Shown one piece after another: positions 62,955 to 64,000 of a DNA stretch of 64,000 nucleotides (the stretch's first letter is position 1; every line of letters begins with the position of its first letter). This DNA is from Rhodopirellula baltica SH 1. GTDB taxonomy: Bacteria; Planctomycetota; Planctomycetia; Pirellulales; Pirellulaceae. The stretch is from the NCBI RefSeq assembly GCF_000196115.1, contig NC_005027.1, positions 4,030,001-4,094,000 of the forward strand. The letters are read 5' to 3'. The position numbers were made by a program, and so were the translations under genes. Under the pieces are notes generated by a model that was not told the DNA's origin, ran no database searches, and saw only the letters and a program-made list of their open reading frames with translations.

Positions 62955-63317
62955 ATGAGCAAGAACAAAAACCTAAATATCTCCCGGGGTCCCGAAGGCT
63001 GGACCGTTCGAATCGTTCGCGAAGGCGAACAGCACTCCAAGTACTTTCGGTTCTCCGATGGTGGGATCCGAAAGTCGCTGGCCAAGGCCCAGAAATGGCG
63101 TGATGCCAAAATCAAAGAGCTCGGCGAGCGACAATGGCGCAAAGGGCCTCGCAAGAAACCCACCAACAACACGTCTGGCATTACAGGTGTCAGCCGAAAC
63201 TTCTACGGCCGCTGGGTGGCGACTTGGCAGGAAGACGGGGTCCAACGTTTCTTGACGTTCAAGACAAAAAAAGAAGCCGTCGCACACCGAAAAGCGATGA
63301 TCGAGGGAATGGGCTAG
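62955..63317 (+). CDS. Small protein with two AP2-like DNA-binding repeats
   Basis: A 120-residue basic protein from the ATG at 62955; a GTG at 62907 would add 16 residues. The C-terminal half, SGITGVSRNFYGRWVATW, then FLTFKTKKEAVAHRKAM, is a clear AP2-type three-strand-plus-helix unit. The N-terminal half (GPEGWTVRIVREGEQ, then KSLAKAQKWRDAK) looks like a diverged second copy, joined by a basic linker (RKGPRKKPTNN). AP2 units occur in plant factors and in bacterial homing endonucleases; no nuclease domain is seen here. Its TAG stop lies inside the inverted repeat of a small element. Confidence 0.82.
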   Translation: MSKNKNLNISRGPEGWTVRIVREGEQHSKYFRFSDGGIRKSLAKAQKWRDAKIKELGERQWRKGPRKKPTNNTSGITGVSRNFYGRWVATWQEDGVQRFLTFKTKKEAVAHRKAMIEGMG

Positions 63318-63439
63318 CAGGCTGTTGATTTATTGAGCCGCACCGCGTTAGCGGCGGTTGATTAGACGCCAACCGGGGCTAACGCCCAACGGCTAATGAT
63401 TGTCATTCGGTATGCGACTAAATCAACAGCCTGCTAGCC
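63312..63439. mobile_element. MITE-like element with 21-bp terminal inverted repeats
   Basis: A 128-bp segment bounded by perfect 21-bp inverted repeats, 63312-63332 (starting GGCTAGCAGG) and 63419-63439 (ending CCTGCTAGCC). The inside is non-coding and has smaller palindromes (CCGC-GTTA-GCGG). It is too short for a transposase. No clear target-site duplication is visible. It supplies the last codon and stop of the AP2-like gene. Confidence 0.7.
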
Positions 63440-63508
63440 GTACGACGGACTTCCGAGTCCGTCGGTGCCAAGGACGATTGACTTTGACGGATTTGGAAAG
63501 GCCATCGC
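63440..63508. repeat. REP-like pair in inverted orientation
   Basis: GTACGACGGACTTCCG at 63440 continues into AGTCCGTCG, a perfect 9-bp hairpin of the same type as the 58162-58359 array. A degenerate copy in the opposite orientation lies at about 63487-63508. The pair abuts the MITE-like element. Confidence 0.7.
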
Positions 63509-63592: not shown

Positions 63593-64000
63593 TCACTCGC
63601 CGGTCAGCTTTCCCATGCTGATTCGTTCTTCGACTTGGAATCCGAGCGATTGGTAAAACGCCACGACCTCGCTGTTGTCGGCGATCACTTGCAAGTTCAC
63701 CTTGGGGCAACCACGACGAGTCAGCTCCGATTCGGCGTGCCGGACCAATCGCGTCCCCACGCCACGTCGTCGGAAGGCAAGCGACACCGCGACGGAATAC
63801 AGCCATCCACGATGCCCGTCGTAACCAGCCATCACCGTGCCCGCCACGTTCACATCGTCCGTCGCCACAAAGAACAATCCATCGTCCGCAGCCATTTTGC
63901 GATCGATCGAGGTGCCAGGATCATTGTGCCCGGTAGATCGAGGGAACACCGCCAACCAAAGATCCACGACGGCGTCACGATCTTCGGCGACGTAATTGCG
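63593..64000 (-). CDS. GNAT-family acetyltransferase (partial, 5' end outside the window)
   Basis: 135 residues are visible plus the stop. The acetyl-CoA loop is in RRRGVGTRLVRHAE, preceded by GTVMAGYDGHRGWLYSVAV and followed by VIADNSEVVAFYQSLGF. This is close to the YpeA group of GNAT proteins. An in-frame GTG at 63967 is not likely the start, because the frame continues to the window edge with family-like residues (YVAEDRDAVVDLW). The substrate is unknown. Confidence 0.9.
   Translation of the reverse strand, partial: RNYVAEDRDAVVDLWLAVFPRSTGHNDPGTSIDRKMAADDGLFFVATDDVNVAGTVMAGYDGHRGWLYSVAVSLAFRRRGVGTRLVRHAESELTRRGCPKVNLQVIADNSEVVAFYQSLGFQVEERISMGKLTGE

Follow-up and report, generated by a model that had tools for sequence, protein, structure and literature searches.

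As characterized in the accessible part of PMC3733652, bacterial MITEs measure 70-300 bp, carry terminal inverted repeats (TIRs) of 15-30 bp, are non-coding, often lie near genes and have strong secondary structure; the same text describes several REP families in R. baltica, together with numerous genes for tyrosine transposases that are flanked by repeats. Palindromic targets have been described for some members of the IS1182 family and for IS1272 (PMC5678879, accessible part), where IS1272 is proposed to replace a target inverted repeat without target duplication, in a scheme that includes a branch duplicating only the loop. The element analysed here lies in a window of 64,000 nucleotides from the Rhodopirellula baltica SH 1 genome (NC_005027.1, positions 4,030,001 to 4,094,000), and it is similar to the MITEs RUP, NEMIS, Bcr1, ERIC, YPAL, Nezha and EFAR, as far as these are covered in the accessible part of PMC3733652, in size, TIRs, non-coding nature, position beside a gene and folding. 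It differs from them, in a comparison by description and not by ends, in the REP-like core of its family. The likeness to REPs and REP dimers (BIME, REPIN) lies in the short palindrome of the core, which recurs elsewhere in the genome, whereas the element ends in TIRs and is flanked by a 4-bp target duplication. The link to the IS1182 family (including IS1272) and its derived MITEs consists of similar ends, a DUF772 DDE transposase and YTAR flanks on insertion sequences (ISs) of the genus; unlike the target replacement proposed for IS1272 (PMC5678879, accessible part), the 4-bp YTAR duplication is kept here and the host flanks are intact. We found no description of this family in the open-access literature on Rhodopirellula repeats, MITEs, IS1182 and RAYT, and Rhodopirellula is not named in the accessible part of PMC6006769; it is a MITE family that is new but belongs to a known kind.

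The first-pass annotation of this locus had placed a MITE-like element of 128 bp at 63312-63439, with perfect 21-bp inverted repeats around a non-coding core. The repeats were recovered by an inverted-repeat search (63312-63332 and 63419-63439, spacing 86 nt) as the only inverted pair of at least 12 nt reported between 62500 and 64000. The mobile unit, however, is 116 bp long and spans 63318-63433, as delimited by 62 copies in the genome and by empty sites in relatives (Table 1). Its apparent TIR is 21 bp instead of 15 bp because the CTAG duplication and 2 bp of a host palindrome extend it on each side, and the empty target, which reads GGCTAGCC, is itself palindromic. Within the 116 bp there is no ORF of 50 aa or longer, and the element strand folds far more stably than its shuffled versions (RNA: -68.9 kcal/mol, z -7.85, the shuffles averaging -38.9 kcal/mol; DNA: z -9.0). 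Being short and without its own transposase, bounded by TIRs and a target duplication with a corresponding empty site, and present in near-identical copies, 63318-63433 is a genuine MITE. The cautious "MITE-like" of the annotation can thus be made firmer by the many copies, the TIRs, the 4-bp target duplication, the empty site in relatives and the candidate source ISs in the genus.

Table 1. Coordinates of the MITE, its target and the associated features (window positions unless a genome contig is given).
Feature	Position	Strand	Basis or remark
AP2-like gene, 120 aa	62955..63317	+	stop TAG kept by target duplication
Host GG, half of GG-CTAG-CC target palindrome	63312..63313	.	
Left copy of 4-bp target duplication CTAG	63314..63317	.	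single CTAG in empty sites L136, L139
MITE proper, 116 bp	63318..63433	+	62 aligned genome copies and empty sites in G006, G009
Left 15-bp TIR CAGGCTGTTGATTTA	63318..63332	+	
REP-like hairpin core of MITE	63336..63394	.	fold
Core motif ACCGGGGCTAACGCCC	63372-63387		within REP-like hairpin core; present also outside the 62 MITE copies
Right 15-bp TIR	63419..63433	-	perfect reverse complement of left TIR
Right copy of 4-bp target duplication CTAG	63434..63437	.	
Host CC, second half of GG-CTAG-CC target palindrome	63438..63439	.	
IS4-family IS copies L081-L084	G000:C1 5759805, 2764405, 2226768, 2219825		

The genome of the window is a single contig of 7,145,576 bp, in which at least 41 long matches to the region were found with the best 40 of 133 candidates scored. 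The 15-bp end had 151 matches at up to 2 mismatches versus 10 for a reversed control, and together these two counts exclude chance. From the fetched loci we assembled at least 62 distinct full-length copies, a lower bound that leaves out split copies, partial copies and unfetched places, and the other copies with the same termini that the annotation had proposed to look for are therefore abundant. By nearest reference, 35 of these copies belong to a "young" and 27 to an "old" group, and all but one are 116 bp long. Flanking 4-mers are identical in 42 copies and not identical in the other 20. The 42 duplications read CTAG (10), CTAA (10), TTAG (8), CTAT (5), ATAG (5), CTAC (2), TTAA (1) and CTTG (1), so that most (29 copies: CTAG, CTAA, TTAG and TTAA) are of the form YTAR, in a context that favours GC-YTAR-GC (-1 C in 26/42, -2 G in 27/42, +1 G in 26/42 and +2 C in 23/42). 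The copy in the window belongs to a set of eight, among the 62, that are identical in every letter, and this suggests a recent spread of the MITE. One copy (L063, G000:C1 3606930-3607172) carries a further insertion in its core and measures 243 bp in total.

Across 60 genomes, with at most the best 14 candidates scored in each, the MITE was matched in 16, representing 5 of 48 genera. Most of its length is matched within the genus of the window; among the matches listed, long ones have 81-99% identity in G002, G004, G006, G010 and G012 and ~73% in G018 and G025, which belong to two other genera, while many of the other listed matches are limited to the REP-like core or to an end. The family is large, with its at least 62 full-length copies here and 234 exact matches to the end NTARCNGNCTGTTGATTTA in G010, compared with 74 in the window's own genome and 0 for controls, and exact matches of this kind are present in 11 of the 13 genomes that represent the genus. 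No MITE match was found in a plasmid collection that may omit records near the window's genome. At five G010 loci (L260, L268, L274, L277 and L287) two elements lie side by side with one CTAG in common. G008 carries a different MITE of ~126-127 bp (L155, L157, L158, L159, L190 and L192) with similar ends and another core, and ends and cores may therefore have recombined within the genus.

The gene into whose end the window copy is inserted encodes a protein that scores 17.2 bits against Pfam AP2, below the 33.3-bit cut-off, and is called AP2-like here. It also gave 13.7 bits with the HTH_23 profile (cut-off 24.6). Matches to the protein occur in 16 of the 60 genomes searched (own genome included); ten of these are close (72-100%), namely the own genome and nine others of the same genus. 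The ORF (62955-63317) ends in GGC TAG, with the last Gly codon at 63312-63314 and TAG at 63315-63317, and both codons do fall within the left 21-nt arm, as the annotation had noted. Its further reading was that the element supplies the stop codon and that the insertion thereby set the C terminus of the protein. A TAG inside a 21-bp inverted repeat invites that conclusion, and yet the TAG consists of the last three bases of the left CTAG duplicate, which is host target sequence outside the MITE. In G006 and G009, whose AP2-like proteins are 100% and 95% identical to that of the window, the site is empty and has a single CTAG (ATGGGCTAGCCGTACGACGG), the stop being in frame as GGC TAG CCG. Alignment of the window with these empty sites gives a clean 120-bp gap, made up of the 116 bp and one CTAG, and in all three genomes the protein terminates in ...MG*. 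The AP2-like proteins of G004 (TAG) and G002 (TGA) also stop at the same residue, with different bases downstream. That the stop came from the element is therefore practically out of the question: the TAG belongs to the host, and the end of the AP2-like protein is unchanged whichever way insertion or excision went. Since the empty state is common to two relatives, insertion in the lineage of the window is likelier than two precise excisions. The comparison with genomes lacking the insertion, which the annotation had itself proposed, thus goes against its account of the C terminus, two members of the same genus keeping an identical protein end; the absence of other copies, which it had named as the second point that would speak against it, is contradicted by their large number. 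The apparent lesson is that a target duplication can conceal a stop codon within an apparent inverted repeat, and a tempting misreading, with a transposon as the maker of a protein's end, is corrected.

Directly 3' of the insertion lies a host inverted repeat (63444-63463, GACGGACTTCCGAGTCCGTC) with 8-bp arms and a 4-base loop, which is kept in G006 and G009 and may have been the 3' hairpin of the AP2-like gene before the insertion. The MITE hairpin faces a GNAT-type gene that runs convergently and ends at 63593.

Taken together, 63318-63433 is very probably a non-autonomous MITE that was moved in trans by an IS1182-type DDE transposase, with a YTAR duplication that keeps the stop and leaves the protein unchanged. 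Observed directly in favour of this model are the copies, their boundaries, the target duplication, the empty site and the identical protein end. An IS1182-type DDE transposase, supplied in trans, would recognise the 15-bp ends and cut the 4-bp YTAR target, here the CTAG within GGCTAGCC at the AP2-like stop, with a putative 4-bp stagger, and repair of the gaps would then duplicate the 4 bp. With TAG contained in the duplicated target, the stop would be restored on the gene side and the AP2-like protein would remain as it was. The part predicted to change is the 3' untranslated region, where the mRNA would gain a strong hairpin after the stop and ahead of the hairpin that the gene itself has downstream.

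Candidates for such a transposase were found within the genus. Six same-genus ISs (in G003, G006, G007, G008, G010 and G012), each with a transposase matching NF033551 (IS1182), have ends that resemble those of the MITE. These read CAGCCTGTTGATTTA/T or CAGCGTGTTGATTTA/T in G003, G006 and G008, CAGCCCGTTGATTTT and CAGCGTGTTGATTTT in G007, and CAGGCTGCTGAAAAA in G012; the IS of G010 carries the end CGGGCTGTCGGTTTA and is flanked by CTAG on either side. The end CAGCCTGTTGATTTA of older MITE copies is matched in 15/15 bp by one end of the G003 IS, and the end of the window copy in 14/15 bp. All six ISs have YTAR beside both ends; the two 4-mers are identical in three, and in the other three they are one base apart (TTAA/TTAG, TTAG/CTAG and CTAA/CTAG). 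An IS in G005, with a transposase over the NF033551 cut-off and related ends (CGGCGTGTTGATTTA), has flanks that are not YTAR, which counts against a uniform YTAR rule. Among the nine contig-edge ends listed for G008, eight are of the IS type with YTAR flanks, and the ninth starts like the MITE of G008 itself and has the flank CAAG. The G008 transposase has the domains DUF772, DDE_Tnp_1 and DDE_Tnp_1_6. With the NF033551 cut-off of 270 bits, the transposases of G005 and G010 score above it and the others under it, G008 at 198 bits. The likeness between the MITE and the ISs of the genus is limited to the ends, no internal match of the MITE to a parent IS having been found. Based on these ends and flanks, the IS1182-type ISs of the genus are likely the movers of the MITE.

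In the window's own genome, a search with the G008 protein gave 0 matches, PF05598 gave 0, and NF033551 gave only two 20-bit matches. G004 also carries the MITE, with no IS1182-type transposase detected by the G008 protein, and in G002, another carrier, the same search returned only two short transposase fragments of 30 and 52 residues. The parent transposase that the annotation had suggested seeking is hence represented by autonomous candidates in other genomes of the genus, and none was detected in the MITE's own genome. An autonomous relative in the same genome is not demanded by all MITE definitions. The family looks orphaned in its own genome, and an IS1182-type transposase has perhaps been lost from the lineage of the window. 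In a scan of named genomes, which may omit records near the window's genome, the transposase had 9 relatives, including Rhodopirellula europaea 6C (100% to the G006 protein), Aporhodopirellula aestuarii and Rhodopirellula rubra.

The own genome also contains two 1607-bp intervals bounded by matching ends, which were considered as the parent IS and rejected as MITE copies split by an IS4-family IS. In their favour, the matching ends lie ~1.6 kb from each other and enclose a 457-aa transposase; the transposase, however, belongs to an IS4-family IS (NF033592, 197 bits) that has its own ends and its own 10-bp duplication and splits two MITE copies, at the same spot and in opposite orientations, and the two other copies of this IS lie in other palindromes. 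We see almost no chance that these intervals are the parent. Four identical copies of the IS4-family IS were found in the own genome with the best 40 of 42 candidates scored, all of them in REP-like palindromes with the 10-bp duplication GGYGNNAGCC, two of these being MITE cores. ISs that target REP palindromes are known from IS1397 and similar elements. The IS4-family IS resembles this type in that 4/4 copies found are in a palindrome, and differs in its relation to the MITE, of which it is a passenger and not the parent.

The core of the MITE also raises the question of REP-type mobility. The motif ACCGGGGCTAACGCCC has 93 occurrences at up to 1 mismatch in the own genome, versus 0 for the control; the 62 copies account for 59 of them, and of the remaining 34, three are in interrupted MITE copies and at least three others in partial ones. 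A REP-like core, with a motif that is also found outside the 62 copies, could indicate a repeat of REP/REPIN type whose mover is a RAYT (Y1 tyrosine transposase) instead of a DDE transposase. REPs, however, are not known to duplicate their target on moving. Here a 4-bp duplication is present in 42 of 62 copies, the empty site lacks 116+4 bp, and similar ends occur on DDE-type ISs, so that even with the REP families and the tyrosine transposase genes with flanking repeats of R. baltica (PMC3733652, accessible part) we consider movement by RAYT very improbable and retain mobilization by an IS1182-type transposase.

Other copies, too, have landed on stop codons. Genes were called by codon usage, with a caller trained on the window (47 genes), in preference to longest-ORF calling. 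This puts 1 of the 62 copies in a weak ORF and the other 61 on a stop or outside called genes; longest-ORF calling places 21 of 62 "inside" ORFs, and both approaches place 11 on stops. Exactly on a called stop are 11 of the 29 YTAR-duplicated copies, compared to 23 of 222 other extragenic YTAR sites from the flanks of all 62 copies (Fisher p 0.0004), and 5 of 46 extragenic YTAR sites in the window are on called stops. Using five caller settings and the flanks of the 29 copies only, the values were 9-11 of 29 versus 4-5 of 74-83, with a stable direction. The excess persists within 200 bp downstream of stops (p 0.008-0.02) and is not significant within 60 bp downstream (p 0.06-0.22). By a hand count among the loci listed for other genomes, stops account for 6/15 in G006, G004 and G002 together (two sites being common to G006 and G004 by their flanks, and one also to the own genome) and for 0/25 in G010; pooled versus 20/321 controls, this gives p 0.054.

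The size of the excess in the own genome and its stable direction over five settings could mean that stop codons are an actively preferred target and not merely tolerated by selection. We find this unlikely, as the excess loses significance within 60 bp, G010 (0/25) disagrees with G006, G004 and G002 (6/15) with a pooled p of 0.054, and 17 of 62 copies lie at targets matching repeated motifs. The stop landings are probably explained by selection and target sequence; most simply, insertions would persist where they are harmless, and with a YTAR target a stop codon would be one of the harmless places. As YTAR is a palindromic class containing TAR, a gene that ends in such a 4-mer retains its stop on either strand, and two convergent genes sharing one YTAR could both keep theirs. 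It is conceivable, and we propose it tentatively, that in this genus a YTAR-targeting MITE treats stops as safe landing sites, repeatedly swapping 3' untranslated regions for a mobile REP-bearing hairpin and leaving the proteins untouched. The family offers a clean test case for whether the choice of transposition target interacts with stop codons.

Palindromes are a second feature of the targets. Pairing beside the 4-mer averages 1.79 of 5 positions in the 42 copies versus 1.29 in 309 sites (p 0.002); copies at stops do not stand out in target pairing (1.45 of 5 positions). The motif ACCGGGGCTAACGCCC also serves as a landing site, with 6 of 62 copies inserted into occurrences of it, so that the MITE brings along the type of palindrome in which it lands. 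For copies in such REP-like hairpins, the loop-only duplication branch of the scheme in PMC5678879 (accessible part) would fit, a link that is drawn by our own analysis. A second repeat, TGGAAGCCTATGCCA, is matched at the target by 11 of 62 copies at up to 3 mismatches, and one of these (copy 1371443) counts as a stop-codon site too.
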